Shown: piece by piece, positions 1,435-24,542 of the stretch
Layout: each line of letters starts with the position of its first letter
Position numbering within the stretch: position 1 is the stretch's first letter
Position numbers and translations under genes: made by a program
Notes under the pieces: generated by a model
Told to the model about the DNA's origin: nothing
The model's input: only the letters and a program-made list of their open reading frames with translations
The model's database searches: none
Assembly: GCA_025362705.1 (NCBI GenBank)
Contig: JANYFH010000111.1
Coordinates: 1 to 42,322, forward strand
Length of the DNA stretch: 42,322 nucleotides
DNA from: Betaproteobacteria bacterium
Lineage (GTDB): Bacteria; Pseudomonadota; Gammaproteobacteria; Burkholderiales; Usitatibacteraceae
Direction: 5' to 3'

Positions 1435-3774
1435 CTATACGGCTTTCTTATGCGGTTTTAACAGGAACGTTGCCAGCGCCGGCAACAAAAAGATCGCGCC
1501 CAACATATTCAGGAAGAACATGAACGCGAGCAAAACACCCATGTCCGCCTGAAATTTCAGCGCCGACATCGCCCATGTGCCAACACCCAGGGTCATCGTC
1601 ACTGCAGTGAAAACCATCGCGGCGCCACGTTCTTTGAGCGCTTCAAAAAAAGCCGCGCCCAGTTCCATGCCTTCTTCGAGATGCACTTCGAGGCGATCGA
1701 ACAGGTAGATGCCGTAGTCAACACCGACACCGACGCCTAACGCAATAACCGGCAGGGTTGATACCTTGAGTCCAATACCCAGCAGCGGCATCAATGCCTC
1801 ACAGAGTATCGACACAATGGCCAGCGGGATCAGAATGCAAAGCGTCGCGCGCAGGCTCCTGAAAGTGGCCCAGCACATCAATAACAGCGCACCGAAAATG
1901 GCAGCGTGCATTTCGTAGCGCGCACTGTCAACGGCTTCATTGGTCGCCGCCGCCACTCCCATGTTGCCGGTGGCGAGTTTGAATTCCAGTTTGTCGCTGT
2001 TGCTTTCCTTAGTGATGTTTTTCACTTCGCTGACCAGGCGTTTCAATGTTTCACCCTGCTGGTCTGTCGTGTTCACCAGCAACTGCATGGCCGAGCAATC
2101 CGGATTCAACAGGCCGGTGGCGGTATCGATCGGTGTCACACTTTGCGCCATCATCGAAGGGTCGCGCGGCAACTGGCGCCACTTGAGATTGCCTTCATTG
2201 AAGCCGGCATTGATGTTGCGCGCAAGACCTGGCAATGACATCACGGACTGCGTGCCTTCGACGTTTTGCATATACCAGTCGAATTTCTCGATGGTCGACA
2301 TGATGTCGTAGTTAGTGCACGCACCTTGCACACCCTTGGTTTGTGCAACTACGCCTAGTGTATTCACGCCGACCGCGAACTTCTGCACGATAACGCCGTT
2401 ATCAACGTTGTAACGCGAAGTGGCGCGTAGTTCAGGCACACCGGAACCGTAATCACCGACTTTGAGGTCGTGCGCTTTCCATAGTCCAAGCGCCAGCACA
2501 ACGGCCGCAATCGCGACAATGACGGTGGCGCGCTTTTTTTGTACGCAGCTCGATGCCGTGTGCCAGATCCGCTCAACGCGATGTTCCTGCGTTACTTCTT
2601 TGCCAAGCGCGCTCTTCGACATGGAAAGATAGGAGAGCAGGATGGGCAATAACATTTTATTGGTGATGATCATCCACGCTACACCCAGCGATGCCGTGAT
2701 ACCGAGCTCGCGCACGATGTCGATCGGGATCAGCATGATCACAGCAAAGCCGAGCACATTGGTTACCAGCGCCAGCGTGCCGGGAATAAAAATAGTGGCA
2801 AACGAATGCTTGGCCGCGGTAAGGCTGTCAGCCCCACCTATAACCTCGTGCTCCCACGATTTGGTCATTTGCACTGCGTGCGAAACACCGATGGAAAATA
2901 TCAGGAATGGCACCAGAATCGACAGGGGATCGATACCGAAGCCGATGATAGGCAACGTCCCCAGCAACCACAACACCGGCATCATCGCAACGACCAGTGC
3001 GACCAGCGTTAATTTCAGATCTTTCACGAACCAAAGCATCAGCACCGCCGTAATGACGAATGCGATCAGGAAAAACATGATCACACCGCGCGCACCCGCA
3101 GAGATGTCGCCTACCGCTTTGGCAAAACCGATGACGTGAATGCTGTGGTTCGGCCCTTCGTACTTGGCGCGCAATTCGTCGAGCTTGTTCGACAAATCAA
3201 AATAATTGAGCTTCTCGATCCGGCCTCCGTCCTTCGGGATCGCTTCCAGCAAGCCGGCCATCACCAGCGCGCCGGTGAAGTCGGTGGCAACGGTACGACC
3301 GATCTCGTTGGATTTTTGCACGTTGCCGCGCACAATGATCATGTCGGCCGACGTGCCCTGGAAGGTGGCGGGGATGACATTACCACCGGCGAAACCCTCT
3401 TCAACGACCTCGATGAATCTGGTGTTAGGTGTGAACAGCGAACGCACGCTGGGTTTGTCGACCCCTTCGAGCGCCATGATGTCGTTGGTTAAGGCTTTCA
3501 GTTTGGCCATGAACTCCGGGTTGTAGATATCACCCTGCTTCTGCACCAGCGCAATGGCGATCCGGTTGGCACCACCGAACACGGTTTCATATTCCTTGTA
3601 CACCTTCATGTACGGATGCTTCAACGGCACCATCTTGTTGAAGCCCGCATCGACCTTCAACTGGCTCGCGGAAATGGCGAAACCGACCGTGACAAAAGCA
3701 AAAACAATCAGCCAAATCTTGCGATTATTGAAAATGATTGCGGAAAATTTTTCGATGAGTTTTTGTAAGTTCAT
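1435..3774 (-). CDS. MMPL/RND-family transporter (HAE3-like, COG1033)
   Basis: A 779-residue inner-membrane protein with the duplicated RND topology. A first membrane helix (residues about 17-37) is followed by a large periplasmic loop, a helix bundle (about 230-390), a second single helix (about 415-433), a second periplasmic loop and a final bundle (about 625-770). The two bundles carry the sterol-sensing-like MMPL pattern, including GVGVGVDYGIYLFDRL. Related transporters move hydrophobic or lipid-like molecules (hopanoids, mycolate lipids) using proton motive force. No dedicated membrane-fusion protein is adjacent. Instead the gene follows YCF48-like, DUF1329 and DUF1302 genes on the same strand, so it is probably the energised inner-membrane part of that envelope module. 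The substrate is not known; a fatty-acyl compound is an inference from the adjoining beta-oxidation genes. Only a weak ribosome binding site is visible. Confidence 0.88.
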   Translation of the reverse strand: MNLQKLIEKFSAIIFNNRKIWLIVFAFVTVGFAISASQLKVDAGFNKMVPLKHPYMKVYKEYETVFGGANRIAIALVQKQGDIYNPEFMAKLKALTNDIMALEGVDKPSVRSLFTPNTRFIEVVEEGFAGGNVIPATFQGTSADMIIVRGNVQKSNEIGRTVATDFTGALVMAGLLEAIPKDGGRIEKLNYFDLSNKLDELRAKYEGPNHSIHVIGFAKAVGDISAGARGVIMFFLIAFVITAVLMLWFVKDLKLTLVALVVAMMPVLWLLGTLPIIGFGIDPLSILVPFLIFSIGVSHAVQMTKSWEHEVIGGADSLTAAKHSFATIFIPGTLALVTNVLGFAVIMLIPIDIVRELGITASLGVAWMIITNKMLLPILLSYLSMSKSALGKEVTQEHRVERIWHTASSCVQKKRATVIVAIAAVVLALGLWKAHDLKVGDYGSGVPELRATSRYNVDNGVIVQKFAVGVNTLGVVAQTKGVQGACTNYDIMSTIEKFDWYMQNVEGTQSVMSLPGLARNINAGFNEGNLKWRQLPRDPSMMAQSVTPIDTATGLLNPDCSAMQLLVNTTDQQGETLKRLVSEVKNITKESNSDKLEFKLATGNMGVAAATNEAVDSARYEMHAAIFGALLLMCWATFRSLRATLCILIPLAIVSILCEALMPLLGIGLKVSTLPVIALGVGVGVDYGIYLFDRLEVHLEEGMELGAAFFEALKERGAAMVFTAVTMTLGVGTWAMSALKFQADMGVLLAFMFFLNMLGAIFLLPALATFLLKPHKKAV

Positions 3775-3828
3775 GGCGCGCTCAATTGGTGAGACTACAA
3801 GTGGTGTCAGCGGAAATTCTGTGGCCGT

Positions 3829-4929
3829 CTATTGCTTGGCAGGTGCAGCCGCAGCGAACAGCACCTCGCGCACCCCCGCTTCGCCGATCAGCAACAACGC
3901 GTTTGGCGCGCCCAGCAGAGGAGCAGAAAGCGCTTTGGTTGATCCGGATGACAGCGGAGAGAACGACTCGCCGTTATCTCGTGATACCAGCACCGTTCCG
4001 GAAAGCCCCGCCAGCACGAGTGCGCCATCGGGTAGACGGGTAGAACCCATCAGCGACGCAACCGATTTGTTTTCAATCTGCTTCCAATTATTCAACGACG
4101 GATCGGTACTACGATAAATTCTGCCGCGCAATCCGTAGATAAGCACTGCTCCGTCCTTTGCCTGAATCGCGCCAAAAAAGGAGCCCTTGTATGGTGACGC
4201 GATCTTTATCCAGGTCTTGCCACCATCGTCGGATTTGGCAAGCATGCCCGCTTCACCCGCAACAAACAGTTTATTTTCTCCGAGTTTCACAATAGCGTTC
4301 AGATGTTTGTCAGCATCGCCACCTTTGCCCCCTGCGTCGTCATCTACGGCCTTTTTATTGCCAACACTCTCGTATTTGCCTTTCTTGGACGTACTAACCT
4401 GAGCCGCCGTTTTCGGGGGGGCGAACATCGTGCGCATGCCCCAGACCTTACCGCCATCGGTGGTCGCGTAGAACGCACCGTATGCGCCTACAGCAAAGCC
4501 CGTATTGGCGTCGACGAAGGTAACATCCATCAACGGTTTTTGATCCTCTGCTGCTGAAAAGGCTTTAACCCACGACTCACCCCGATCAGTCGAGGTAAGA
4601 ATGGTGCTGTCGTGACCCACCGCCCAGCCGACCTTGTCATCAAGGAAATACACCGCTGTCAGCAACGGTGTATTCGGCGGTGTCATGGCGCGCTGCCACG
4701 ACTCGCCGTTGCTGTCAGAGTAAACGATATAGCCACGATCCCCGACGGCCACCACGCGGTTGCCAATGCGGGTGGCATCGGTCAATAGCAGACGGGACAT
4801 CGTTTGTTTGGTGAGTGGCCCAGACACGGGCATCACGGCAGGATTGATTTGTGCGCGCACATCGAACGACACGCAGGTGGTTAGCACCACGCCTGCAACA
4901 ATGGCGGCAAGTACAATGAATTTTGTCAT
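3829..4929 (-). CDS. YCF48-like BNR-repeat exported protein
   Basis: A 366-residue protein with an N-terminal signal peptide, probably cleaved after VRA around residue 26. The mature part contains at least five Asp-box/BNR motifs of the form S/T-x-D-x-G-x-S/T-W/F: SDSNGESW, STDRGESW, TTDGGKVW, SDDGGKTW and SRDNGESF. They indicate a beta-propeller related to the photosystem II assembly factor YCF48. In non-photosynthetic bacteria these proteins have no settled function; a scaffold or assembly factor for a membrane complex is the reasonable guess. It lies 54 bp upstream of the RND gene and downstream of DUF1329, and is part of the same envelope module. A GAGG lies about nine bases before the ATG. 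A Lys/Gly-rich insertion (KGKYESVGNKKAVDDD region) separates the third and fourth repeats. Confidence 0.85.
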   Translation of the reverse strand: MTKFIVLAAIVAGVVLTTCVSFDVRAQINPAVMPVSGPLTKQTMSRLLLTDATRIGNRVVAVGDRGYIVYSDSNGESWQRAMTPPNTPLLTAVYFLDDKVGWAVGHDSTILTSTDRGESWVKAFSAAEDQKPLMDVTFVDANTGFAVGAYGAFYATTDGGKVWGMRTMFAPPKTAAQVSTSKKGKYESVGNKKAVDDDAGGKGGDADKHLNAIVKLGENKLFVAGEAGMLAKSDDGGKTWIKIASPYKGSFFGAIQAKDGAVLIYGLRGRIYRSTDPSLNNWKQIENKSVASLMGSTRLPDGALVLAGLSGTVLVSRDNGESFSPLSSGSTKALSAPLLGAPNALLLIGEAGVREVLFAAAAPAKQ

Positions 4930-5036
4930 GTGAATACAGCCTCGGCGAACAGTGAGCGGTGAGCGACGTTGAATGCAGATCGATTATTGAATTGCCGACT
5001 CTGTGGCGTCAATCGAAAAAGCCGCCTCCAAAAACA

Positions 5037-5065
5037 ATTCGGGGACAAAATAATTGTCCCCGAAT
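5037..5065 (-). terminator. Hairpin with T-rich tail after the DUF1329 gene
   Basis: A perfect 12-bp inverted repeat (ATTCGGGGACAA and TTGTCCCCGAAT) encloses a 5-base loop. On the minus strand it is followed by TTGTTTTTGG, so it has the form of a Rho-independent terminator 38 bp past the DUF1329 stop. It lies inside the co-directional array and could reduce expression of the YCF48-like and RND genes relative to the genes before it. Confidence 0.65.
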
Positions 5066-5103: not shown

Positions 5104-6477
5104 TCAACGCGTACCCAGATTGCGCAGGTTTTGCGGAGTGTAGTCGGCAGCAGTGCGCTTGATCGGCTGATAGATGACTTTCTCTTCCGAACGCAGGCCC
5201 ATCGCGATGTAGCGACGCGACTGAAGGTCATGGTGTACTTCGATCGTGCCAAACCACATCGGGACGTCGTACCAGTTCTCGCTGTGCTGCTCGGAGAAAC
5301 GCCACAATTGTCCGCGACCATCATATTTGTCGATCAGCACAACGTTCCAGCTATCTTCGTCGATGTAAAAGGTACGGCGCGCGTAGATGTGCGAGGTGCC
5401 AGCCTTCAACGTCGCATCCACCACCCAAACGCGATGCAGTTCATAGCGTGCCAGATCCTGGTTCAAGTGGCCCGGGCGTAGCAGATCGCCATACTTAAGC
5501 TTCGGATCCGTCATGCGATACGAGTTGTAGGGAATATACATTTCTCTCTTGCCGACCAGCTTCCATTCATAGCGATCAGTCGCACCGTTGTACATGCCGA
5601 AGTCGTCATTGGTACGTAGTCCGTCAGCAGCAGTACCGGGGTTGTCGTACGCCACGTTTGGCGCCAGACGCACGCGACGCTGTCCAGGGTTATACGTCCA
5701 CGCCGAACGCGGCTCCTTTGCCTGGTCAACGGTCTCGTGTACTAATAGAATCTGTCCGGCAAGGCGCGCTGGTGCAGTGGTGACTTGCAAATAATTGAGA
5801 ACCTTGTTGGGCTCGCGTTGCGCCGCTGTTTTCGACAGGTTGCCATATTGCAAATCATATTCGTACTCAAATTTCACGAGTGCAAAATCGCCAGTTGCAG
5901 TAACTGCAGCCTGTGCCCAGTTTTGGGCGAAAGTGTCACCCTTGTAATGCAAGATCATGTTCCAGATTGCTTCATTGCCGTCCTTGGGGATGGGAAACGG
6001 AACTCCGCCCGTGCAACCGACAACGCCGTTGCCACCGGTCGCAAGCTTGGCTTTGGCAGCACACTCTTTGGTTTCCTTGTAGTTTCCTTCCGGGTACGCC
6101 GCCGTGCGGCGCGTGGCGAAAACATTCAACTTGTAGGTTGGATACTGCTTCAGCATGGCCATCTGACCCGGCGAAAGATTGTCCTTGTATTTGTCGGCCG
6201 TCGCAGCCGTGATTGTAAACAGCGCCTTGTCAGTCGGGAACGGATCGGGATAAGTGCCTCCCGTTTTGAATGCCAAACCCGCCGGTACCTTAGTGATGCC
6301 GCCATCCCATGCGGGGATGGTGCCTGCAGCATTTCCGGCTTTCTCCGCGCCCATGGGTGTCAGTGTGGTGCCGAGTTTCGCCAGGTCGCTTGCGCCAAGC
6401 TCGGCATAGGCTCCGACCGAAATGGCCAGAGCCCCTACCGTGGCCGATGCCAACATCGTCAATCGTTTCACGTTCAT
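5104..6477 (-). CDS. DUF1329 periplasmic protein
   Basis: A 457-residue protein with a clear Sec signal peptide (MNVKRLTMLASATVGALAIS..., cleavage probably after AYA near residue 25). The mature sequence has the DUF1329 features: ELGASDLAKLGTTLTPMGAE and IPAWDGG near the start, and NPGQRRVRLAPNVAYDNP and FYIDEDSWNVVLIDKYDGRG in the second half. The family has been described as outer-membrane lipoprotein-sorting-like, and a lipid or hydrophobic-ligand carrier role in the periplasm is plausible but unproven. The ribosome binding site is strong (GGAGGAAAC directly before ATG). It follows the DUF1302 gene by 142 bp, the usual partner order for these two families, and precedes the YCF48-like and RND genes. 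Confidence 0.88.
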   Translation of the reverse strand: MNVKRLTMLASATVGALAISVGAYAELGASDLAKLGTTLTPMGAEKAGNAAGTIPAWDGGITKVPAGLAFKTGGTYPDPFPTDKALFTITAATADKYKDNLSPGQMAMLKQYPTYKLNVFATRRTAAYPEGNYKETKECAAKAKLATGGNGVVGCTGGVPFPIPKDGNEAIWNMILHYKGDTFAQNWAQAAVTATGDFALVKFEYEYDLQYGNLSKTAAQREPNKVLNYLQVTTAPARLAGQILLVHETVDQAKEPRSAWTYNPGQRRVRLAPNVAYDNPGTAADGLRTNDDFGMYNGATDRYEWKLVGKREMYIPYNSYRMTDPKLKYGDLLRPGHLNQDLARYELHRVWVVDATLKAGTSHIYARRTFYIDEDSWNVVLIDKYDGRGQLWRFSEQHSENWYDVPMWFGTIEVHHDLQSRRYIAMGLRSEEKVIYQPIKRTAADYTPQNLRNLGTR

Positions 6478-6619: not shown

Positions 6620-8599
6620 CTAGAACGAGTAAGACACTACAAACGAGTAGAAATCACGGTCCTTGATCGGGTTAGCGCTGGAACAGAAGTTAGCGCCCTG
6701 TCCCGCAATGCCCAACGCGGGTATACCAGTGATCTGCGGGGAAAGCGAAGTTTGCCCGGCATTGGTGACCTGATCGGTACCACAGAACACTCTTCCACCG
6801 AAGAACGTGTTGTAGGAAATGTCGAAACTCAAGCGTCGCTGAAACTCAAGGTTGGCGCCGACCGAAACCGATTTCACTCCCTCGTTAAACGTCTGCGACA
6901 CACCCTTCACGTCATGACTGAAGGCAACACGTGGCGCCAGATTGCCGCCGAACAGCGCGTTGGCGTAATCAAGGCGCCCGACCAAACGGTAACCCCAGGA
7001 ATTTTCAGTTGTGTAACCGCCTGGCTGCACCGACCCCGCCTGTCCCGCTACGGCACCTTCAGCCGTCGCTGGCAGACCAGCCGCCGGGCCGCTGAATTTC
7101 TGGCCGTTGGTCAGTCCGTTGTACTTGGTATAACCGATCTCACCAACAACCACGCCCTGATCAGAGTGGAATATGTTCGGGAACGATTTGGTAGCCGTCA
7201 TCTGGAACTGCGTCTGCTTGACGCGACGCCAGCCGGTGATCTCCGTACCATTGGGAACCAAAGCCGCCGCAGAAGCACCGAAAGGGTTCGTCGCACTAAC
7301 CGTTCCAGGAATAGTCGCAAAACCAGTCACCAGATTTGGTGCGCTCAGAACAGCAAGAATCACCTCCGCGCTGGCTAGTTGCAAAGGCTGATTGGGACGG
7401 TACGAAACTTCACCTTGCAAGGCAATCCCGGCCGGCCCCTGCGTGTTAAATGAGAAGCCGTACATTTTGATGTCTTCCGGATACTCAACGAAATAACTCG
7501 CGGTACCCGTATGACCCACGGCTGCCGCCAACGGCCCGCCCGTTACGATGGATGTCGGCGTACCTTTCACGCCAGAGAGCACTGGAGTACGGCTATGGTA
7601 ATTCACGAAATAAGTGCCGAATTCGGTGTTGTTCAATTCCGTGGCGAGATAGCGAAATGCCGCGCCATATTGGCCGGTATCCTTGGCATTGCGATCTGCG
7701 GTGCGCGGCACCCATACCGCAGCGGCTGGATCAAATGGACCGTAACCCAACAACTGCGTCGTTGGGAACGCAGGGGATGTTGGCGGCACCAGGTTAGTTG
7801 GCTTTTGATGGAACAAATCCTTGCGCCGACCGAAACTGACAATTATCTCCGTGGAATCATCCGACGCCGAATCGTTATTGCTGAAATACGAACCTCTCGG
7901 GTCAAGCTTGAATTTGTCGTGGTTGAACAGCATGAAGGTTTCCAGGCTGGCCTGTTTGGTCAATTCAAATGAAGCGTAGAGCGTACTGGTCGGAATGAAT
8001 GCCTCTTTGAGTTCTGAGCCAGGAACACGCAGCTTGGAAACATCCACCGCGTTGATTATATTGATACCGTTCGGAATGAATGTCGATTCACCCCAGGAAA
8101 TCACCTGCTTACCCGCACGAACGTTGATGTTTTTATCGCCGAATTCAAATGTGCGCGCAACGAAGGCATCGAGAAACTTCGCATCTTCGGCGAGACGATC
8201 CCGACCGATCGGACCGAGGCTGTTGGCTCTGCGGGCTTCCGTGTCGACAAAGTATGAACCGCGCACCAGCATGCTCCAGCCGTCGTACTTGCCGGATAGC
8301 TCGTGGGTACCCTTCAGCAATTGTGAGAACGGACGGTTCTTCGCGTAAAAGCGGTCGCCATCGTCTTCATTCGTGGAACGCGACGTACCGCCGTTGGCAA
8401 TACCGATCAGGCTCGGGTCGATCTTGTCAGCTCGTACCGAGATGCCATATGAAAATGTCGAATCAAAGCTGCCTGTAAAGCCATTATCGTAGCTGAACTG
8501 TCCGGCATTGGCGGTACCTGTGAGCGCTAATGCCACGGCGATTGCCGACGCTTTCAGCACGGGCGAGAGTGCGCAAGCGCTCTTGGATAAATTCCTCAT
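6620..8599 (-). CDS. DUF1302 outer-membrane protein
   Basis: A 659-residue exported protein with a signal peptide ending near residue 32 (TGTANA followed by GQFSYDNGFTGSFDST). The C terminus FYSFVVSYSF has the alternating aromatic pattern and terminal phenylalanine of outer-membrane beta-barrels. The body is rich in glycine, aromatic residues and alternating strand-like segments. These features match the DUF1302 family, regarded as outer-membrane proteins, possibly channels for hydrophobic compounds. GAGGAG lies about nine bases upstream of the ATG. It is the first gene of the envelope module after a 300-bp gap from the thiolase, so it may have its own promoter. Two cysteines near the C terminus (VFCGTD and NFCSSAN) could form a disulfide in an external loop. 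Confidence 0.87.
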   Translation of the reverse strand: MRNLSKSACALSPVLKASAIAVALALTGTANAGQFSYDNGFTGSFDSTFSYGISVRADKIDPSLIGIANGGTSRSTNEDDGDRFYAKNRPFSQLLKGTHELSGKYDGWSMLVRGSYFVDTEARRANSLGPIGRDRLAEDAKFLDAFVARTFEFGDKNINVRAGKQVISWGESTFIPNGINIINAVDVSKLRVPGSELKEAFIPTSTLYASFELTKQASLETFMLFNHDKFKLDPRGSYFSNNDSASDDSTEIIVSFGRRKDLFHQKPTNLVPPTSPAFPTTQLLGYGPFDPAAAVWVPRTADRNAKDTGQYGAAFRYLATELNNTEFGTYFVNYHSRTPVLSGVKGTPTSIVTGGPLAAAVGHTGTASYFVEYPEDIKMYGFSFNTQGPAGIALQGEVSYRPNQPLQLASAEVILAVLSAPNLVTGFATIPGTVSATNPFGASAAALVPNGTEITGWRRVKQTQFQMTATKSFPNIFHSDQGVVVGEIGYTKYNGLTNGQKFSGPAAGLPATAEGAVAGQAGSVQPGGYTTENSWGYRLVGRLDYANALFGGNLAPRVAFSHDVKGVSQTFNEGVKSVSVGANLEFQRRLSFDISYNTFFGGRVFCGTDQVTNAGQTSLSPQITGIPALGIAGQGANFCSSANPIKDRDFYSFVVSYSF

Positions 8600-8709
8600 C
8601 TGATGCTCTCCTCAAGGGTGGTATTGAAACTTATATTCGGCGATAACCTGGCTGCCAGTTACAGTCATTCGACTGACATTCATACCAAGATCACCATCTT
8701 TTAATTACT

Positions 8710-8738
8710 GTACAGGAAAATGTTTGCGTACAGGCAAA
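8710..8738. promoter_or_regulatory. Direct repeat GTACAGGnAAA upstream of DUF1302
   Basis: GTACAGGAAAA (8710-8720) and GTACAGGCAAA (8728-8738) are spaced 18 bp start to start, within the 300-bp gap 8600-8899 ahead of the DUF1302 gene. The second copy also forms an inverted repeat TTTGC-n6-GCAAA. Helical phasing and location suggest a regulator site, but the regulator is unknown. Nothing else, gene or terminator, was recognised in this gap. Confidence 0.35.
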
Positions 8739-8899
8739 TTACGGGTTGTGCAGTGCAGCGTAAAAATTGGTGCCGCTGTCTATAACAAATCAATTACAGC
8801 ATGGCTACGCCAATGCCCTAGCGGAAATGCGCACGACTTGCCTTTGCAGCACCGATGCAGGCTCTGCGCAGACCGTTGTTTTTATACAACGTCGAGGGC

Positions 8900-12652: not shown

Positions 12653-13072
12653 TCAGTCCGCTGGTACTGGTCGCGGCTTCCTCTGGTCATCCACCGCGAC
12701 ATACGTCAACTGCGCTTCCGTCACCTTCACGACCTCGGCACCAAATCGCTGGCGTTGCGCATAAACCTCGACGTCGACAGTCAGCGACGTACGCCCGACC
12801 TTGACGACATCAGCATAAAAACTCACCAGGTCGCCGACCAGCACGGGCTGTTTAAACTGGAACGAATTCACCGAGACTGTGACGACCTTGCCGCGAGCGC
12901 GCACTGTGGCCGGGACGCTGCCCGCCAGATCAACCTGCGCCATCACCCAGCCGCCAAAGATCGTCCCGTGCGCATTGGTATCGGCCGGCATCGGGATGAT
13001 GCGAATGACAGGCTGCCGGTCTTTCGGCAGATGTGTCACTTCGCAAAAAGGCTCGGTGGTTTCATTCGTCAC
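12653..13072 (-). CDS. YciA-like acyl-CoA thioesterase (hotdog fold)
   Basis: A 139-residue hotdog-fold protein with the acyl-CoA thioesterase signature MPADTNAHGTIFGGWVMAQVDLAG near residues 25-48, including the Asn-x-His and Gly-Gly elements of the YciA/BFIT family. It hydrolyses acyl-CoA to free acid and CoA, perhaps relieving CoA trapping during fatty-acid degradation. The open frame extends further upstream to 13180 but overlaps the synthetase gene there. I prefer the GTG at 13072, whose GTGA overlaps the stop of the acyl-CoA synthetase by four bases and has AAGGGG upstream, because it gives normal family length and tight translational coupling. Confidence 0.85.
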   Translation of the reverse strand: MTNETTEPFCEVTHLPKDRQPVIRIIPMPADTNAHGTIFGGWVMAQVDLAGSVPATVRARGKVVTVSVNSFQFKQPVLVGDLVSFYADVVKVGRTSLTVDVEVYAQRQRFGAEVVKVTEAQLTYVAVDDQRKPRPVPAD

Positions 13073-16145: not shown

Positions 16146-16146
16146 G

Positions 16147-17331
16147 CTAAAGCGATAGATCGATGCTGAAAAACTCGCCCAGCTCTTCGCCGGTGGCGCC
16201 TACCTGCGCGCTCACGCCACCGACGAATTCGTCCAGTGACGACTCTGATTCGAGTGACAAACATTCTGCACGGTAGCGCATCACCCGCACGACGGCCCAG
16301 GGAATCGCCAGGCCGAGCGAGAACAGGATGGCGAACATGTTCACAAAGTACAGCCACGCCAACCCTCGCAGCTTCAATGTACTGACAAATGAAACCTGTC
16401 TATCGAGACGCGTATTGTTGAACACCAGATTGCCAATACGCGACTTCGTGTATCCAAACATGAGTGATCCGATCGCGAAGTAAGCCAGTGAAAATACCAG
16501 CGCCAGCAAGACCGCCGCAAACACACCGCCCTTTGCACCGATGGCGGCACTGGCGGCGACGACAATACCGACAACGATGCCAATGACAACGATAACGCCA
16601 AAGGCAAGCAACATCGTTAAAAGATAAATCTTGTAGAACGCACCAATACCGACATCGATGGAAAATGGCGCGGCGCCGTACTTCGAATGATTGACGTGCA
16701 GTTTTTTCAATGAACCGATTGCGAACGGATAGACCGCAAAAATCGCCAGCATCTGTAGGCCAACGAGCACGAAGAACAGGGTGGGCGGCGGCACCTTGCC
16801 TGCCTTGTCAATCTCGGGCATCAAGAACGGAAACACCAGCACCAGCGCGACTGGCCATATCGTTTTCAGCACGTCCATATAGGTGGCCTGGAATCGAAAG
16901 CGAATATTTCGATAGCTCGAGTTGAAAGCGTTGAACGCCATAGAACGGGCGATGAACCATGGCGCAGCGACAAACAAACCCAGCGCCAGCCCCGCTGCCA
17001 CTTTTGGCATGAAATAGTTAATGCCGGAGTACGTACCAAATGCCGCTGCCGCGATCAACCGTCCCTTGAGGATGGCAATCGGGTTGCCGTGATATTCGAA
17101 ATTGGCGTCGGCAACCCAGGTGTGGCCGTAAAAATAGCGCTTCTTGCGAACTTTGGCCCAGGCGGAATAAATGCCCAGGGTGATGATGGTCAGAAAGAGG
17201 TTGACAATCCAGATGCCGAAAAATCCGCCCGTTGTGCCGGTGAAAGAGAAGGGATGCGACTCGCACGGCGCGCCGGTCGCTGGTTCAATCTGGGCGAAAG
17301 CGTCGCCGCCGCCCAAAGAAATATCCTGCAT
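16147..17331 (-). CDS. DUF898 (YjgN-like) membrane protein
   Basis: A 394-residue multi-pass inner-membrane protein of the YjgN/DUF898 family. Family patterns include HPFSFTGTTGGFFGIWIVNLFLTIITLGIYSAWAKVRKKRYF near residues 25-65 and YTKSRIGNLVFNNTRL in the second half. About eight hydrophobic segments can be seen. The function of the family is unknown. The ATG has GGGAGAG about six bases upstream. The gene follows the DUF4442 thioesterase by 78 bp and is immediately followed by the M48 protease gene. The pair interrupts a run of fatty-acid genes but is transcribed with them; regulation of membrane composition or protein quality is conceivable but only a guess. Confidence 0.88.
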   Translation of the reverse strand: MQDISLGGGDAFAQIEPATGAPCESHPFSFTGTTGGFFGIWIVNLFLTIITLGIYSAWAKVRKKRYFYGHTWVADANFEYHGNPIAILKGRLIAAAAFGTYSGINYFMPKVAAGLALGLFVAAPWFIARSMAFNAFNSSYRNIRFRFQATYMDVLKTIWPVALVLVFPFLMPEIDKAGKVPPPTLFFVLVGLQMLAIFAVYPFAIGSLKKLHVNHSKYGAAPFSIDVGIGAFYKIYLLTMLLAFGVIVVIGIVVGIVVAASAAIGAKGGVFAAVLLALVFSLAYFAIGSLMFGYTKSRIGNLVFNNTRLDRQVSFVSTLKLRGLAWLYFVNMFAILFSLGLAIPWAVVRVMRYRAECLSLESESSLDEFVGGVSAQVGATGEELGEFFSIDLSL

Positions 17332-17409: not shown

Positions 17410-17877
17410 CTACGCTGCTTTTTTTCGTGGACTGATATACATCGTTATATCGGCATGCACCACGATATTGCCGCCAGTGTCTTTCACATCCACACTGACG
17501 ATCACGTCGCGGGCGGGGCCGTCACCAAAATCGGCAGCAGTGCACTCGGCAGTCAAATCGGTTTCGGATTTTTTAAGGTACTGCACATTCATGCTCTTGG
17601 GTAACCAGCGCATCGACGGCGGCAGGCTCGCTTCCATCAACGTGCCAGCGCCGCACTCGGCCAGATTGCACACGGCGATCGCGTGGACTGTACCGATATG
17701 ATTCTCGACCGCACGCCGCTTTTTCATGCTTACGCGGGCATAGCCGGGTTTGAATTCCTCAAAGCGCGGCTTGATGGTCGAAAAATATGGCGCGGTAAAA
17801 CAAATGGCTTTTCCAAATAGCCATTTGCCCATTGGTTTAGTGGATAGCCTCCCCCACAACGCCATCACGTACGCCAT
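17410..17877 (-). CDS. DUF4442 hotdog-fold thioesterase-like protein
   Basis: A 155-residue protein of the DUF4442 family, which has the hotdog fold of acyl-CoA thioesterases. Visible elements are FKPGYARVSMKKRRAVENHIGTVHAIAVCNLAECGAGTLME and the C-terminal strand region VIVSVDVKDTGGNIVV. Activity on acyl-CoA is inferred from the fold and context. The ATG at 17877 lies two bases past the stop of the FadJ-like gene; a second in-frame ATG four codons later is possible, and neither has a good Shine-Dalgarno sequence. It is the second thioesterase in the cluster and is unrelated in sequence to the YciA-like one at 12653. Confidence 0.82.
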   Translation of the reverse strand: MAYVMALWGRLSTKPMGKWLFGKAICFTAPYFSTIKPRFEEFKPGYARVSMKKRRAVENHIGTVHAIAVCNLAECGAGTLMEASLPPSMRWLPKSMNVQYLKKSETDLTAECTAADFGDGPARDVIVSVDVKDTGGNIVVHADITMYISPRKKAA

Positions 17878-17879: not shown

Positions 17880-19895
17880 TTAATACTGGCTCCAGCCAGC
17901 ATCTGGCGCAAATCGTGCGCCATGCTTTTGTTCAAGCAGCTTCATTTCCGCCAGCAGTTTTTCCTTGCCTGCGCTCTTCAGGTAATTGAGCGGGCCGCCA
18001 CGATGCGGCGCAAAGCCGGTTCCGAAAATTACACCCGCATCGCAAAGATCCGCATCGACGACAATGCCTTCACGCACACAGGCGACTGCCTCGTTCACAG
18101 CGGGCAGTGTCATGCGCATCCACAAAGGTGCCAGATCCGATATGCCAAAACCGCCGGCTTTTTGTGGCCTGCCGTTAACCCATTTGTAAAACCCTTCGCC
18201 GGATTTCTTGCCGAGTTTTTTGGCGGCAACCAATTCCTGAATTTTCTTGGGCTCAGGTCCACCGGGCTTGGCGAGTTCCTTGCCTACGGCGAGACCCACA
18301 TCCAGGCCAACGGTATCGGCCAACTCAATCGGACCCATCGGCATACCAAATTCACGCGCCGCGGCATCAATGGTTTCTGCCGAAAACCCTTCTTCCAGCA
18401 TCACTTGTGCCTCTGTCATGTAGGGCGTAAGAATGCGATTGACCAAAAAGCCGGGGGCGGATTTCACCGGGAGTGGCAGCTTGTCGATTTTTTTCACAAA
18501 TGCCTGCGAGAGCTTCATCACGTCTGCTGATGTTTGCGGGCCCTCGACAATTTCAACCAGCATCATCTGCGCGACGGGGTTGAAGAAATGGATGCCAACC
18601 AGACGTTCTGGTCTCGCCAGTCCAAGCGACAATTCCTGCAAGGGAATGGATGACGTGTTGGTCGCAAGAATGGCCGACATTTTCAGTTTCGGCTCAATCT
18701 GCGCGTAAAGTTTTTTCTTGATTTCCGCGTTCTCGACAATGGCCTCAATCACGAGATCGCAGTGATTCACGCCATCACCCTTGATATCCGGAATCAACCG
18801 GTCCATCGCGGCCTGAATGAGGTGCGGTTGCTTGAGACGTTTCTTGTACATGTCCGCGGCGCGTTTGATCGCGGGTGCGATTCGCGCGTGATCGAGATCC
18901 TGCAGCGTCACCGTGAATCCTTTTAGCGCGCACCACGCGGCGATATCGCCACCCATCACACCCGCGCCGACGACATGAACGTGCTTGATGTTCACATCGC
19001 TCGCGCCTAGCGCCTTCAAGCGATCCTGCAATTTGAAAATGCGGATGAGATTTGCGGTAGTCGGATGCTTGAACATTCCGGCGATCGAATAGGGTTGGTC
19101 TTGCGGAACATTGCGCGGATCGCCACCGTAGTTCTGCCACAGATCGATGATCGCGTAGGGTGCCGGGTAATGATCCTTGCGCGCCCTCTTCGCGACTTGC
19201 TTGAGCGAAGCACTCGCAACAAAACCACGCACGATGGGCCAATTGGTGATGGCATCCTTGAATGCCGGCTGATGCATTGCCGGCGGTTTGCCAAGCAACA
19301 TTGTTGCCGCGTTGGTGAAATGCCGGCGTGGCGCGATGACATCCACAAGGCCCATGTTCTTTGCACGTCTGCCATCGACTGCACGACCAGTCAGCATCAG
19401 GTCGAGCGCCTGCGCTGCCCCGATCAGCAGTGGCATGCGTTTGGCGCCGCCCCAGCCGGGCACGATGCCGAGCATTACTTCCGGCAACGCCATTTTTGTT
19501 TTTGCGCCGTCGTCAGCGATGCGATATTTACATGCAAGTGCGAGCTCAGTTCCGCCACCCATGCAGAAGCCATGTATCAACGCGACTGTCGGGAATGGCA
19601 ATGCGGCGACTTGGTCGAATACATCGTTGCCGAGTTTGGTGAATGCAAAGGCTTCATCACTGTTTTTAAGTGTCGTGAATTCATCGATGTCGGCACCTGC
19701 AGCGAAGCCGTTTTCTTTTGCCGAGAGAATGGCCAAGCCCTTCGGCGGCTGCGCTGCAAGCTGCGCACAAATCTCGCCCAGCTCGCGCAGCGCTTCGCTG
19801 GAAAACGTGTTGGTCGATGAATTCGCACGGTCAAATGTGAGCCACGCCAGTTGCGCGGCATCGACATCGAGTCGCCAGTGTTTCCAATTCGACAT
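17880..19895 (-). CDS. Enoyl-CoA hydratase / 3-hydroxyacyl-CoA dehydrogenase fusion (hydratase first, FadJ-like)
   Basis: A 671-residue multifunctional beta-oxidation enzyme. The crotonase domain is N-terminal (residues about 1-190), with the oxyanion-hole motif AKENGFAAGADIDEF and both catalytic glutamates in FCMGGGTELA and LPEVMLGIVPGWGG. The NAD-binding domain begins near residue 310 (VHVVGAGVMGGDIAAWCA), with IHFFNPVAQMMLVEIVEGP further on. This is the FadB/FadJ order, opposite to the fusion at 10154. The ATG is preceded by GAGGGA at about nine bases. The gene lies between a thiolase and a thioesterase and probably forms a trifunctional complex with the thiolase at 20044. It is somewhat shorter than E. 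coli FadJ (714 residues). Confidence 0.93.
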   Translation of the reverse strand: MSNWKHWRLDVDAAQLAWLTFDRANSSTNTFSSEALRELGEICAQLAAQPPKGLAILSAKENGFAAGADIDEFTTLKNSDEAFAFTKLGNDVFDQVAALPFPTVALIHGFCMGGGTELALACKYRIADDGAKTKMALPEVMLGIVPGWGGAKRMPLLIGAAQALDLMLTGRAVDGRRAKNMGLVDVIAPRRHFTNAATMLLGKPPAMHQPAFKDAITNWPIVRGFVASASLKQVAKRARKDHYPAPYAIIDLWQNYGGDPRNVPQDQPYSIAGMFKHPTTANLIRIFKLQDRLKALGASDVNIKHVHVVGAGVMGGDIAAWCALKGFTVTLQDLDHARIAPAIKRAADMYKKRLKQPHLIQAAMDRLIPDIKGDGVNHCDLVIEAIVENAEIKKKLYAQIEPKLKMSAILATNTSSIPLQELSLGLARPERLVGIHFFNPVAQMMLVEIVEGPQTSADVMKLSQAFVKKIDKLPLPVKSAPGFLVNRILTPYMTEAQVMLEEGFSAETIDAAAREFGMPMGPIELADTVGLDVGLAVGKELAKPGGPEPKKIQELVAAKKLGKKSGEGFYKWVNGRPQKAGGFGISDLAPLWMRMTLPAVNEAVACVREGIVVDADLCDAGVIFGTGFAPHRGGPLNYLKSAGKEKLLAEMKLLEQKHGARFAPDAGWSQY

Positions 19896-20043: not shown

Positions 20044-21324
20044 TCAAGCTCTCTCAAGCAACATCGCGCCACCCTGCCCACCACCAATGCAAAGCGACGC
20101 CGCAGCACGTTTGCCGCCGGTGCGTGCTAGCGTTTTGAGCGCATGCAGAACGACGCGCGCGCCAGACGCGCCGATGGGATGGCCGATGGCAATTGCGCCA
20201 CCATCGACATTAAATTTCGCACGATCCATTTTGCCAAATGCCTTGTCGAGCCCAAGTTTTTCCCTGCAGTAGGCATCCGACTCCCACGCGGCGAGACAAC
20301 CCAGCGCCTGTGCGGCAAACGCTTCGTTTATTTCGAGGGCATCGAGATCATTCAGGCCAAGACCGTTGCGCTGCAGCATCGGTGTGATCGCGTGCACGGG
20401 CCCGAGTCCCATCTCGCTTGGGTCGAGTGCGCTCCACTGCGAATCGACAATCGCGCCCAAAGGTTGGAGATTGTACTTGGCGACGGCTGCCTCAGAGGCG
20501 AGGATCAGCATCGCCGCACCATCGGTTACCTGTGAGGCGTTGCCGGCGGTGACGGTGCCATAGGTCTTGTCAAAAACTGGGCGCGGTTTAGCGAGACCTG
20601 CGAGCGTGGAATCGGCGCGGACACCGTCGTCATCCTTGTAAACATTGCCCCTGCTGTCGATCAGGGCCTCAATCTCGCTGAAGTGTCCAGCTGCGCGACC
20701 AGCGACTACTTTTTGATGCGACTCGTTCGCGAATTCGTCCATCATCAGTCGCGTAATGCCGAAACGCTTCGCGACGATTTCTGCGGTCTGGCCCATCGAC
20801 AGCTTTACGATCGGATCGGTGAGTCCTTTGAGAATGGCGATAACGGGCGCCAGATACGCAGGCCGAAATTTCACCATCAACCCGGCGCGCTGGCCGAACG
20901 ATTTTGCGGCGGACCAATCTGCCAGCCAACTTACCATCGCCGGCCCGAACAATAGCGGCGCATGGCTCATCGCATCGGTGCCACCGGCCAACACCAGATT
21001 CGCGCGGCTCGCAAGAATATTCATGCACGCTGAATCAAGTGCCTGCATGCCCGAAGCGCAATTTCGCATCACCGTCCACGCCGGTACTTTATCGCCGCAG
21101 CCAAGACGCAACGCGACCACGCGGCCAATGTTGGCTTCGTCTGCCGAAGGCATCGCGGCACCAACGATGACTTCATCGAACTCTGTCGGCGCGAATTTCT
21201 GCCGCGCCAGCAAAGGTCGCCCGCAACCTACCGCCAAATCTCCGCCAGAGAACGGGCCGGGTTTGTTCCGGGCTTTGAGGAATGGCGTGCGTGCACCGTC
21301 GACCACATAAACTTTTCCGCTCAT
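20044..21324 (-). CDS. Acetyl-CoA C-acetyltransferase (FadI-like thiolase)
   Basis: A 426-residue thiolase. The active-site cysteine lies in MRNCASGMQALDSA (about residue 89), the histidine in GGAIAIGHPIGASGARV (about 378), and the second cysteine in SLCIGGGQGGAMLLE at the C terminus. The length and the long insertion around residues 125-180 match FadI-type rather than FadA-type thiolases, consistent with the FadJ-like partner downstream. The ATG overlaps the FadE stop by four bases (ATGA), so translation of the two is coupled. It catalyses the last step of a beta-oxidation round, releasing acetyl-CoA. Confidence 0.92.
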   Translation of the reverse strand: MSGKVYVVDGARTPFLKARNKPGPFSGGDLAVGCGRPLLARQKFAPTEFDEVIVGAAMPSADEANIGRVVALRLGCGDKVPAWTVMRNCASGMQALDSACMNILASRANLVLAGGTDAMSHAPLLFGPAMVSWLADWSAAKSFGQRAGLMVKFRPAYLAPVIAILKGLTDPIVKLSMGQTAEIVAKRFGITRLMMDEFANESHQKVVAGRAAGHFSEIEALIDSRGNVYKDDDGVRADSTLAGLAKPRPVFDKTYGTVTAGNASQVTDGAAMLILASEAAVAKYNLQPLGAIVDSQWSALDPSEMGLGPVHAITPMLQRNGLGLNDLDALEINEAFAAQALGCLAAWESDAYCREKLGLDKAFGKMDRAKFNVDGGAIAIGHPIGASGARVVLHALKTLARTGGKRAAASLCIGGGQGGAMLLERA

Positions 21325-23786
21325 TCGGCAGCCTCGGCTTGTTGCCAGACTGGCGGCACGCTACTCGCCTGCTTGCCAAAGTGTTTATCGAAATCATCGA
21401 CCATGATGATTTCGTGTTGCAGCACGCGCGCACGCTTCCAAAGCGCCAATTCCGTCTCGGTGATCACCGAGAGTTTCATGGCCTCTTCATATTGCGCATC
21501 TGCGCCGTGACCGCTCAGGCGACCCGCTTTTTTTGCGACGCGCACTTTCGCCTCGATGGGTTCAGCTGCGATCACAGCGTGCATCGCCGCCTCCAGCTTG
21601 CCGATCAAATCGGTATCACTCTTTGGCAAATACATTCCGGCGATCAGGCGACTACGTGCCGCCGACGGCTGGATCAGGAGATCGGCAACTTCATGGCCCA
21701 TCTGGTCGCTCGGCTGAATCAGGGTGAGGCCACGCGGGAATACGAGCCTTCTCAACACAAACGCGACTGCGCGATTTGGGAAGTTGTCGATGATGCCGTC
21801 CATTGCCACCTGGATCTTGAACGCGGAATCGTACAAAGCCCAGCGCAGAAACGGCAGTTCGTCGGTTTGACGCCCCCGCTGATCGTAGAACTTCAATGCG
21901 CACGACGAGAGATACAAAAGTGAAAGTACGTCGCCCAGTCGCGCTGATAATTTTTCTTTGCGTTTCAGCGAGCCGCCGATGACGAACATGCTGACGTCAG
22001 CCAACAATGCAAAGGCGGTCGAAAAACGCGTGAGCTGTTGGTAATAGCGCTTCGTGTCGTCACACGCGGGGGCAGGTAATCCACGCGCGCCGGAAATGCC
22101 GGTCCACATCGCGCGCGCCGCATTCGAGATCGTGAAGGAAATGTGATTCCAGAAAGCGTCGTCGAATTTTTCGACCGAGTCTTCCTGCGCGGCTTTCATT
22201 TCCTTCAGGACCCACGGATGGCATCGAATTGCGCCTTGACCGAAAATGATGAGTGAACGGGTGAGAATGTTGGCGCCTTCGACGGTGATCGCAACCGGAA
22301 TCATCTGGTATGCGCGACCGAGGTAGTTGTTCGGTCCCAGACAAATACCCTTGCCGCCATGTACGTCCATCGCATCGTTGAGCACAATGCGCATACGTTC
22401 GGTCATGTGATATTTCGAGATGGCCGAGAGTACTGAAGGCTTCTCTCCCATGTCGAGCGCGCCTGCAGTAACGGTGCGACATGCATCCATCAGGTAGGTA
22501 TAGCCACCGATGCGCGCCAGGGGTTCTTCGATGCCTTCAAATTTGCCGATCGGTGTTTTGAATTGTTGGCGCACGCGTGAATAGGCACCTGTAGCCATCG
22601 AGGCAAACTTGCCGGCAGCAATCGATTGTGCAGGCAATGAAATTGAACGGCCCGCTGCGAGGCACTCCATCAGCATGCGCCAGCCCTGCCCAATCATCGG
22701 TTGCCCGCCGATCACCCAATCCATGGGAATGAATACATCTTTGCCTGAATTCGGACCGTTCATGAATGCCGCGTTTAACGGGAAGTGGCGGCGACCGATG
22801 TTTACGCCCTTATGCGAGGTCGGAATCAACGCACAGGTAATGCCGAGATCGCTCACCTCGCCAATCAGTTTGTCGGGATCAAAACATTTGAATGCAAGTC
22901 CGAGAATCGTAGCAACAGGCCCCAGCGTGATGTAGCGCTTTTCCCATGTGACGCGCAGGCCGAGCGTTTCCTTTCCTTCCCACATTTGTTTGCAAATAAT
23001 ACCGACGTCCGGCATTGAGGCGGCGTCTGAGCCGGCGTCTGGCGCGGTCAGCGCAAAGCACGGCAATTCCAGACCCTTGGCGAGGCGAGGAAGATAGTGA
23101 CTCTTCTGTTCTGGTGTGCCGTAGTGCATCAGCAATTCGCCCGGCCCCAACGAATTTGGGACCATTACGGATACCGCCGCAGTGCCACTGCGCGTGGAAA
23201 TTTTCATCACCACTTGCGAATGCGCGTAAGCTGAAAATCCCAAGCCACCGTACTCCTTGGGGATGATCATTCCCAGGAACCCTTTGTCTTTGATGAACTG
23301 CCAAACATTGGGCGGCAAATCGTAGCGTTCGTGCGAAATTTCCCATTCGTTGGCCATCGCGCACAACTCTTCGGTCGAGCCATCGATGAAAGCCTGTTCT
23401 TCCGGGGTTAATTTTGGTGCCGGGTAATCGAGCAGTTTGTTCCAGTCGGGCTTGCCGCTGAAAAGATCGCCATCCCACCAAACGGTGCCGGCATCGAGCG
23501 CCTCGCGTTCGGTTTGCGACATTTGCGGAAGCAGGTTCTTATAGATCTTGAAGATTGGCGCTGTCACCAAACTTTGGCGCAATGACTTGAGATTGCTGAC
23601 GACCGCAAAAGCGATGAACGCAATCCACAGCAGACCCGCAAATACCCCCATCAACACGCCGCCAGCCGAGAGCCCGAGAAGGCCTATACCTACCACCAGC
23701 GACCATGCGGCAGCACTTGCCGCGTGATAGGCGAGTATCCATATGATGGCGATTGCTACAACGATGGATAGCAGAATTGTGATCAT
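21321..23786 (-). CDS. fadE: FadE-type acyl-CoA dehydrogenase (with DUF1974)
   Basis: An 821-residue flavoprotein close in length to E. coli FadE (814). It starts with two or three membrane helices (residues about 1-65: ILLSIVVAIAIIWILAYH and GLLGLSAGGVLMGVFAGLLW). The acyl-CoA dehydrogenase core follows (about 130-500: PKEYGGLGFSAYAHSQVV, CFALTAPDAGSDAASMPD, VHGGKGICLGPNNYLGRAYQ), then the long C-terminal DUF1974 region typical of FadE. It performs the first oxidation of beta-oxidation and passes electrons to the respiratory chain through ETF. AAGGGA lies six bases before the ATG. It begins 12 bp after the TetR gene and overlaps the thiolase gene, placing all three in one transcription unit. 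Confidence 0.95.
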   Translation of the reverse strand: MITILLSIVVAIAIIWILAYHAASAAAWSLVVGIGLLGLSAGGVLMGVFAGLLWIAFIAFAVVSNLKSLRQSLVTAPIFKIYKNLLPQMSQTEREALDAGTVWWDGDLFSGKPDWNKLLDYPAPKLTPEEQAFIDGSTEELCAMANEWEISHERYDLPPNVWQFIKDKGFLGMIIPKEYGGLGFSAYAHSQVVMKISTRSGTAAVSVMVPNSLGPGELLMHYGTPEQKSHYLPRLAKGLELPCFALTAPDAGSDAASMPDVGIICKQMWEGKETLGLRVTWEKRYITLGPVATILGLAFKCFDPDKLIGEVSDLGITCALIPTSHKGVNIGRRHFPLNAAFMNGPNSGKDVFIPMDWVIGGQPMIGQGWRMLMECLAAGRSISLPAQSIAAGKFASMATGAYSRVRQQFKTPIGKFEGIEEPLARIGGYTYLMDACRTVTAGALDMGEKPSVLSAISKYHMTERMRIVLNDAMDVHGGKGICLGPNNYLGRAYQMIPVAITVEGANILTRSLIIFGQGAIRCHPWVLKEMKAAQEDSVEKFDDAFWNHISFTISNAARAMWTGISGARGLPAPACDDTKRYYQQLTRFSTAFALLADVSMFVIGGSLKRKEKLSARLGDVLSLLYLSSCALKFYDQRGRQTDELPFLRWALYDSAFKIQVAMDGIIDNFPNRAVAFVLRRLVFPRGLTLIQPSDQMGHEVADLLIQPSAARSRLIAGMYLPKSDTDLIGKLEAAMHAVIAAEPIEAKVRVAKKAGRLSGHGADAQYEEAMKLSVITETELALWKRARVLQHEIIMVDDFDKHFGKQASSVPPVWQQAEAAE

Positions 23787-23798
23787 TGTTTTCCCTTT

Positions 23799-24542
23799 CT
23801 AAGCTTCCTGAAATAAATGGTTTCCGTCATCTTCCACTGAGCTCGGTGCGCTGGGTGAACGCAAGCCAGCCGCCAAAAATGGAGCGAGCCGCTTCAAAAG
23901 CAACTCGTCGTTGGTTGTTTCTTCCGGATGTGGCTGCGAAATTATCTTCAGCATATCGGCACCTGCCAACGTATAGGACAAAGCGCCCATCACGAAATGC
24001 AAACGCCACGACAATTCCTCACGCGGGATGTGCGGCAGGGCACGGCTGAATGCGCTGCGAAACCGCGCAATCATTTCCCGATACTGGTTCGAAAGAAATT
24101 CGCGGATAAATGGTGCCGGGTCGGCGTACGCGCGTCCCAGCAACCGCAAAAAATTCTTTCCGCCCTGTTCGTAGTCGCGCGCGAGCTTCAAGGCGGGAAT
24201 GAACATTGCAGCTAAAATCTTTTCGCAAGTTAGCGGTTTGCCCGCTGCAGCGATCTCGTACGCCGAAAGCAATTGCATGCGATCATGGTTCATCGGATCC
24301 AGTCTGCGCGTGAGTACCGCCTGAAACAATTCTTCTTTTGAGCCAAAGTGGTAGTTCACGGCAGCCAGATTCACACCAGCCGCGGTTGTGATTAGGCGCA
24401 AGGACGTGGCTTCGAAGCCGTGTTCCATAAAAAGCTCCTCGGCCGCATCGAGAATTTTCGACTTTGTATCGGTCGGTTCAACCACTCCTTCGGCTGTTAC
24501 ATTGCCGTTACGCGGTAATCGTTGGATTGAGCTTGGAGCCAT
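23799..24542 (-). CDS. TetR-family regulator, PsrA-like
   Basis: A 247-residue TetR/AcrR regulator. The helix-turn-helix domain spans residues about 25-75 (KSKILDAAEELFMEHGFEATSLRLITTAAGVNLAAVNYHFGSKEELFQAV). The segment LRLIT..AGVNLAAVNYHFGSK is close to that of Pseudomonas PsrA, which senses long-chain acyl groups and represses fatty-acid degradation genes; the C-terminal ligand domain fits the same group by length. It is the first gene of the locus, 12 bp ahead of fadE. A palindrome at 24586-24599 beside a promoter-like sequence upstream suggests autorepression relieved by acyl-CoA or free fatty acid. The ATG has a weak ribosome binding site. Identity as a PsrA orthologue is an inference. 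Confidence 0.88.
   Translation of the reverse strand: MAPSSIQRLPRNGNVTAEGVVEPTDTKSKILDAAEELFMEHGFEATSLRLITTAAGVNLAAVNYHFGSKEELFQAVLTRRLDPMNHDRMQLLSAYEIAAAGKPLTCEKILAAMFIPALKLARDYEQGGKNFLRLLGRAYADPAPFIREFLSNQYREMIARFRSAFSRALPHIPREELSWRLHFVMGALSYTLAGADMLKIISQPHPEETTNDELLLKRLAPFLAAGLRSPSAPSSVEDDGNHLFQEA

Follow-up and report, generated by a model that had tools for sequence, protein, structure and literature searches.

An Ame-type envelope module at the end of a PsrA-headed beta-oxidation locus without FadL in Usitatibacteraceae

Gene content and layout of the locus

The window analyzed here is the whole stretch of 42,322 nucleotides formed by positions 1 to 42,322 of contig JANYFH010000111.1 (GenBank assembly GCA_025362705.1; Betaproteobacteria bacterium, family Usitatibacteraceae), and its host assembly comprises 2.75 Mb in 421 contigs and is 85% complete. 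Open reading frames and domain profiles placed fifteen consecutive genes on the minus strand between positions 1435 and 24542 (Table 1). In transcription order, these encode a PsrA-type TetR regulator, FadE, a FadI-type thiolase, a FadJ-type protein, a DUF4442 hotdog protein, a DUF898 protein and an M48 peptidase, followed by a FadD-type ligase, a YciA-type thioesterase, a FadN-type protein, a FadA-type thiolase, DUF1302, DUF1329, a YCF48-like protein and an MMPL/RND transporter. FadN, FadA and similar names are used as family labels assigned from sequence only. The last four genes, DUF1302-DUF1329-YCF48-RND, lie on one strand with the content and order of AmeABCD, and are referred to below as the envelope module. 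The initial annotation had described fifteen consecutive minus-strand genes with several 4-base overlaps and a PsrA-like regulator at their head, which we recovered together with the domains that it named: three 4-base overlaps join gene pairs (21321-21324, 15030-15033 and 13069-13072), the last depending on a GTG start at 13072 for the YciA-type gene, whose domain is whole from there, and the regulator scored over the cut-off for TetR_C_30 and at 189.9 bits against a cut-off of 300 for the NCBIfam PsrA model. That annotation had omitted the DUF898-M48 pair (15030-17331) and the absence of FadL.

FadJ, FadN, FadI, FadA and FadD retain, as applicable, the hydratase Glu, dehydrogenase HFFNP, thiolase Cys/GHP and ligase TSGTTG motifs, so that these genes show no sign of decay; a single motif looked for in FadE was not matched, which is uninformative. 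In the envelope module, DUF1302 has a signal-peptide-like start and a C-terminal SYSF, and its predicted fold is a large barrel of the AlgE or OprD kind. Its AlphaFold model, built on a 10-row alignment, was weak (mean predicted local distance difference test score, pLDDT, 49.9) and was used for the term 'large barrel' alone; among the 50 PDB matches listed for this model were AlgE, OprD-like, MOMP and OmpC-type proteins, and none was FadL. A DUF1329 model from a 10-row alignment (mean pLDDT 34.7) was left unused. DUF1329 matches the LolA-like family PF17131, and the RND protein best matched the HAE3 model (136.5 bits against a cut-off of 351.9). A sequence search against the PDB returned no convincing relatives for DUF1302 or DUF1329, and weak matches to HpnN and multidrug pumps for the RND protein.

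Table 1. Features of the locus and of its upstream region.
Feature	Position	Strand	Basis
Predicted sigma70-type promoter of psrA, TTGACA-17-TACGCT	24605..24633	-	sequence; same arrangement in L007, L010, L012
PhaR/PhbF-type box upstream of psrA promoter	24644..24658	-	fits TG[N]TGC[N]3GCAA
Predicted PsrA operator, palindrome ATTTAAACGAACGTTTGAAT	24583..24602	-	matches P. putida footprint TTCAAACN4GTTTGAA
psrA-type TetR repressor	23799..24542	-	PF17939 TetR_C_30 4.8e-33; NCBIfam PsrA 4.8e-56, below cut-off
fadE, long-chain acyl-CoA dehydrogenase	21321..23786	-	PF09317 5.8e-106; PRK09463 over cut-off
fadI-type thiolase	20044..21324	-	PRK08170 over cut-off; catalytic Cys and GHP motifs
fadJ-type hydratase-dehydrogenase	17880..19895	-	PRK11154 9e-151, below cut-off; catalytic motifs present
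DUF4442 hotdog protein, putative thioesterase	17410..17877	-	PF14539 3.1e-49
DUF898 membrane protein, accessory	16147..17331	-	PF05987 4.5e-103
M48 metallopeptidase with DUF7092, travels with DUF898	15030..16145	-	PF01435, PF23368
fadD-type AMP-binding acyl-CoA ligase	13069..15033	-	PF00501, PF23562; FadD11 3e-80, below cut-off
YciA-type hotdog thioesterase, GTG start overlaps fadD stop	12653..13072	-	PF03061 1.6e-17; PRK10694 4e-35, below cut-off
fadN-type dehydrogenase-hydratase, reversed domain order	10154..12526	-	both hydratase Glu and HFFNP motif kept
fadA-type thiolase	8900..10099	-	PRK09052 over cut-off
Gap before DUF1302, 300 bp, imperfect PhaR-type box near 8744-8760	8600..8899	-	
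DUF1302 putative outer-membrane barrel, AmeA type	6620..8599	-	PF06980 2.6e-150; low-confidence model with AlgE/OprD/porin matches
DUF1329 LolA-like periplasmic protein, AmeB type	5104..6477	-	PF07044 1.1e-149; PF17131 5e-8
Terminator-like hairpin between DUF1302-DUF1329 and YCF48-RND pairs	5037..5065	-	
YCF48-like propeller protein, AmeC type	3829..4929	-	PF14870 2.1e-19
MMPL/RND inner-membrane transporter, AmeD type	1435..3774	-	PF03176 6.1e-22; HAE3 model 8e-40, below cut-off

Linkage of the module to fad genes and absence of FadL

A scan with the FadN-type protein yielded 38 loci, of which L002-L012 belong to the window's lineage by gene order and identity; L010 lies on the complete chromosome CP012157 ('Betaproteobacteria bacterium UKL13-2'). 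The same order was kept in L002-L005 and L007-L012 as far as the contigs reach, with varying accessory genes, and L006 is cut off after FadA. The DUF898-M48 pair was found inside the locus, before the ligase, only in the window, L004, L008/L068, L066 and L067, and was rejected as a core part because it is absent from the locus in most relatives; an alpha/beta hydrolase gene stands near its position in L004 and L011. In 23 other genomes of the family whose DUF1302 stretch was retrieved (L048-L070), DUF1329 always followed DUF1302, and in 22 of them FadA preceded DUF1302 on its strand, the stretch of L053 ending at a contig edge, indicating that the joining of fad genes and module is not a chance neighbourhood. 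The L018/L050 branch has opposite-strand genes in place of the FadE-FadI-FadJ half and keeps the thioesterase-FadN-FadA-DUF1302 half. In L048 (10187-11632) and L054 (3139-4587), which come from other genera of the family, a DUF3592 gene separates FadN from FadA.

Beyond the family, we chose same-contig FadE-DUF1302 neighbours by eye from a class sample of 150 genomes, 93 of them with FadE. L122 carries PsrA-FadE-FadN-FadA-DUF1302-DUF1329-YCF48-RND on one strand, where an operator immediately precedes the psrA match, and L123 carries FadE, FadN, FadA, a lipase gene and the module, also on one strand. In their family-mates L125 and L133, FadA lies upstream of the module near contig edges, with about 4 kb between them in L133. 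The initial annotation had set a gene-order comparison across relatives as a test of its reading, and the linkage proved conserved, in 22 of the 23 family genomes and in two other families. On a 57-row DUF1329 tree, from which L124 was excluded (FadE and DUF1302 3.7 kb apart and divergent, no DUF1329 match), the window's family formed one clade and two other fad-linked pairs lay elsewhere; the three linked groups took three changes, the minimum that the starred branches force for the 'unlinked' label, with gains and losses not distinguishable. Two linked loci have a further gene between FadA and DUF1302, of secreted lipase type in L123 and of penicillin-amidase acylase type in L054, and the products of both, judged from their families, would free acyl chains in the envelope. 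Among the tree's 28 unlinked modules, six (L081, L082, L085, L129, L135 and L140) had an acyl-CoA gene match in the fetched stretch, and plasmid modules lay amid assorted catabolic genes, one near a long-chain acyl-CoA ligase, so that the module family is broader than fatty acids. On a Pseudomonas plasmid (L142, 6985-10338), a gene for a fatty-acid CoA ligase is followed directly by DUF1302-DUF1329 with no YCF48-RND, showing that this pair can travel alone.

In the textbook picture, long-chain fatty acids enter through the outer-membrane channel FadL. A profile search for its family (PF03349) found no member in six genomes, namely the window assembly and five relatives, the complete UKL13-2 included. 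Across 28 genomes of the family, a FadL-family gene was present in 11 (2 of 13 of the genus and 0 of 4 single-contig genomes), and DUF1302 in 26, among them all 13 of the better genomes and all 4 single-contig genomes. In a sample of the order (120 genomes, 55 with FadE), 35 of the 55 had FadL on the strand of FadE and less than 5 kb downstream of it; four others, all of the window's family, had DUF1302 10.5-14.9 kb downstream of FadE and FadL nowhere. The remaining 16 had neither FadL nor the module near FadE, and some of them neither anywhere, so other uptake routes exist; in three order genomes of one genus (G069, G105 and G134; L089, L091 and L093) FadE is present, with FadL and DUF1302 not among the matches. 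Outside the window's family, no genome of the order sample had a strong DUF1302 match within 20 kb of FadE. As FadL usually comes after FadE and ahead of the FadN-FadA pair, and the module comes after FadA, the slot that they share is the operon and not an exact position.

We compared strong FadL matches (E<=1e-50) between FadE genomes with and without a strong DUF1302 match (E<1e-100, a level reached by 13 of the 31 order genomes and 26 of the 45 class genomes that had any match), both thresholds having been picked after the lists were seen and four FadL thresholds compared; the two samples both include G000. In the class, strong FadL occurred in 4 of 21 genomes with strong DUF1302 against 44 of 72 without (p=0.001), or 4 of 20 against 44 of 72 when the window's genome was removed (p=0.002), and the contrast vanished when any FadL match at E<=1e-3 was counted (14 of 21 against 57 of 72, p=0.25). 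In the order, the counts were 3 of 9 against 37 of 46 (p=0.009), a contrast that rests on the window's family (3 of 5 against 37 of 46 without it, p=0.29). Because of these two losses of contrast, the argument that FadL was exchanged for the module is strong for the window's family and suggestive beyond it.

Regulatory sequences and the substrate of the pathway

The operator ATTTAAACGAACGTTTGAAT sits just downstream of the promoter elements TTGACA-17-TACGCT, over the promoter region of psrA, and matches the PsrA footprint of P. putida (quoted in PMC13104628). Its core, AAAC-N4-GTTT, is present upstream of psrA in 13 of 15 other loci drawn from this family and from FadL-bearing fad operons; L104 has the core with one change, and the L009 stretch begins too late, the L009 genome having the site. 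A weight matrix built from 15 psrA sites, the window's included (the scores of these 15 are circular), found no second site scoring above 9 in the window (0.65 expected). The exact pattern occurred once in the whole window assembly, at this locus, and one to four times in each of ten relatives, and the reversed pattern, taken as a control, was empty in 10 of 11 genomes. Fifteen further sites were fetched: six lie directly before etfB-etfA (L108, L109, L110, L113, L114 and L117, read by eye from the protein), L119 lies before psrA itself, and the remainder have no assigned target, some of them lying plainly inside genes.

Ten loci of nine genomes have another near-perfect operator (scores 25.7-31.5) immediately ahead of the module-bearing thioesterase-FadN-FadA half. 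These loci, none of them in the matrix training set, belong to other genera of the family (L018, L048, L049, L050, L054, L055, L058, L066 and L067, L018 and L050 being one genome), plus L013, whose stretch ends before the module; no second operator at this place was found in the window's genus, and the ligase/thioesterase overlap in the window fits read-through from psrA. Both layouts, as read from the DNA, place the envelope module under PsrA. The fifteen genes likely form one transcript, with two caveats: the 300-bp gap before DUF1302 and the hairpin with T-run that parts DUF1302-DUF1329 from YCF48-RND. The same hairpin is found in L003, L008, L010 and L012, other hairpins in L007 and L066 and a weak one in L009; none was found between DUF1329 and YCF48 in L005, L048, L054, L122 and L123. 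If it acts as a partial terminator, the hairpin would yield more barrel and carrier than pump.

In Herbaspirillum, footprinting placed PhbF, which is related to PhaR, on the box TG[N]TGC[N]3GCAA (PMC3206438). A box of this type precedes psrA in the window, L010 and L012, and exact ones occur in the FadA-DUF1302 gap of L007, L009, L010, L011 and L012, the window's gap holding an imperfect box only; none was found anywhere in the L004, L006 and L008 loci. These boxes hint that the regulator of polyester storage acts on the locus, and may tie fatty-acid uptake to that storage.

In the complete UKL13-2 genome, two genes pass the family cut-off for 3-hydroxyacyl-CoA dehydrogenase, and this locus holds both; one partial match lies below the cut-off. 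In the L012 genome the two of this locus are the only matches. The window assembly has a third such gene, located on contig C190 and sharing 29% identity with FadJ of the window, and a single match to PF09317 (FadE). Since both full dehydrogenases of UKL13-2 are located here, and since PsrA operators also precede etfBA in relatives, the locus is best read from its genes and sites as the Usitatibacteraceae housekeeping set, repressed by PsrA, for long-chain fatty-acid degradation.

Two small features adjoin the genes described. A repeat word, GCGCC(A/G)G(C/T)(G/A)CT(A/T)GAGTT, occurs on the minus strand in three gaps of the locus (19970, 12562 and 1368); it recurs loosely in some relatives with inconsistent placement. 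Between erpA and psrA lies a 43-aa open frame (MAGEKKRTRRNTLERK...; 24759-24890, minus strand) for a predicted small basic protein, followed by a strong terminator at 24704-24733.

Proposed role of the envelope module and comparison with known systems

We propose that the Ame-type module, which occupies FadL's slot, probably took over FadL's role in uptake. A long-chain acyl ligand would lift PsrA off the operator over the promoter, so that the downstream genes are expressed; the fatty acid would then cross the outer membrane via the DUF1302 barrel, be received in the periplasm by the LolA-like DUF1329 protein and reach the inner membrane with the YCF48-RND pair. Activation would fall to the FadD-type ligase, and chain shortening to FadE with the FadJ/FadI and FadN/FadA sets. 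We prefer uptake because FadL is missing, because genes for envelope hydrolases adjoin the module and because the phenotype on Tween 20 of mutants in the P. putida homologues is a loss of growth (PMC10866462). In a bolder, less probable version, the module would import long-chain fatty acids across the whole envelope independently of FadL, possibly with an import-direction RND driven by the proton gradient, and would have joined the PsrA-fad regulon on up to three separate occasions.

Several points weigh against a role in fatty-acid uptake. The window assembly is 85% complete, and some FadL-family gene is present in 11 of 28 family genomes. The 16 order genomes with neither gene near FadE, the disappearance of the class contrast when any FadL match is counted and the dependence of the order contrast on one family count in the same direction, as do the modules of the same family in unrelated catabolic neighbourhoods, the poor DUF1302 and DUF1329 models and the interpretation of AmeABCD as a monoterpene efflux system (PMC6394551).

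An alternative explanation is efflux, in which the module is a detoxifying pump for excess free fatty acid or amphiphiles, co-induced with beta-oxidation, while uptake proceeds through another porin or by diffusion. HAE-type RND transporters usually export, and some FadE genomes do without both FadL and DUF1302. Mutants in AmeABCD are no longer tolerant of monoterpenes, and their uptake of Nile Red is increased (PMC6394551). However, FadL was lost in the very lineage where the module is fixed, acyl-hydrolase genes of the envelope sit at the FadA-DUF1302 junction, and P. putida requires its four homologues to grow on Tween 20 (PMC10866462); we consider efflux unlikely.

The initial annotation had inferred a dedicated route for uptake (or export) and degradation of a long-chain or unusual hydrophobic acid under one regulator, and had taken the duplicated enzymes as a sign of a substrate (branched, steroid side chain, hydroxylated or very long chain) that requires two specificities. 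Our results support the joining of transport and breakdown of a hydrophobic acid under a single regulator; they support neither 'dedicated' nor an unusual substrate. The two enzyme sets, the PF23562 C-terminal domain of the ligase and the occurrence of the module family in other catabolic clusters speak for an unusual acid. By contrast, the 3-hydroxyacyl-CoA dehydrogenases over cut-off in the UKL13-2 and L012 genomes are these two only, the operators before etfBA point to general degradation, and domain profiles found no steroid or terpene enzymes among the fifteen genes. FadE-FadI-FadJ is also paired with FadN-FadA in fad loci of other families, with FadL near by in L106 and none near by in L099 and L104; the two sets thus do not point to an odd substrate, and such a pathway seems improbable. 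A further alternative, in which the module is an independent unit that came to lie downstream by history, has a promoter of its own and does not contribute to fatty-acid metabolism, would fit the 300-bp gap that lacks a PsrA operator in the window and the hairpin inside the module, but is highly improbable given the linkage in 22 of 23 family genomes and in two other families and the PsrA operator that heads the module-bearing half in other genera.

The locus is real, conserved and built of known parts, and it goes beyond ordinary beta-oxidation because of the FadL exchange. To our knowledge, how fatty-acid degraders that lack FadL take up long-chain fatty acids is largely open. A fad operon that was kept while FadL was exchanged for a four-part transporter suggests a likely substrate for that transporter family, and gives reason to re-examine export versus import in the Ame-type RND branch. 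Our literature searches, in which only PMC10866462 and PMC6394551 were consulted, as excerpts, gave no link of the module to fad operons or to FadL loss, a weak negative.

AmeABCD of Castellaniella defragrans, which protects against monoterpenes and has been read as efflux, resembles the module in the succession of its genes for DUF1302, DUF1329, a YCF48/COG4447-like protein and an RND transporter (PMC6394551; compared by description); the transporter is HAE3-type there, and that of the window is nearest to HAE3 at a score below the cut-off. AmeABCD lies in a monoterpene island, whereas the window's module ends a PsrA-controlled beta-oxidation locus without FadL. In P. putida, PP_0765, PP_0766, PP_2018 and PP_2019, which likewise encode DUF1302 and DUF1329 proteins together with a periplasmic protein and a transporter of efflux type, are required on Tween 20 and were proposed to form a transport system, with predicted contacts between DUF1302 and DUF1329 and among DUF1329, PP_2018 and PP_2019 (PMC10866462). 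PP_2018, termed periplasmic there, would by our inference be YCF48-like. By locus tag the P. putida pairs form two separate loci, whereas the window has one block joined to fad genes; the split falls between the same pairs that the hairpin parts in the window. PsrA-fad operons with FadL from the window's taxonomic order (L096, L097 and L106) share with the window PsrA, FadE and a FadN/FadA-type pair, and some also carry a FadI/FadJ pair or a ligase and thioesterase, but they carry FadL downstream of FadE, where the window's family has none. Finally, in Smlt2053-2051 of Stenotrophomonas maltophilia a PsrA-type autorepressor heads fadB/fadA variants and responds to long-chain fatty acids (PMC10304680). 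The regulator at the head and the type of operator are as in the window, but that system comprises three genes and no envelope module, whereas the window's locus comprises fifteen genes with the module.

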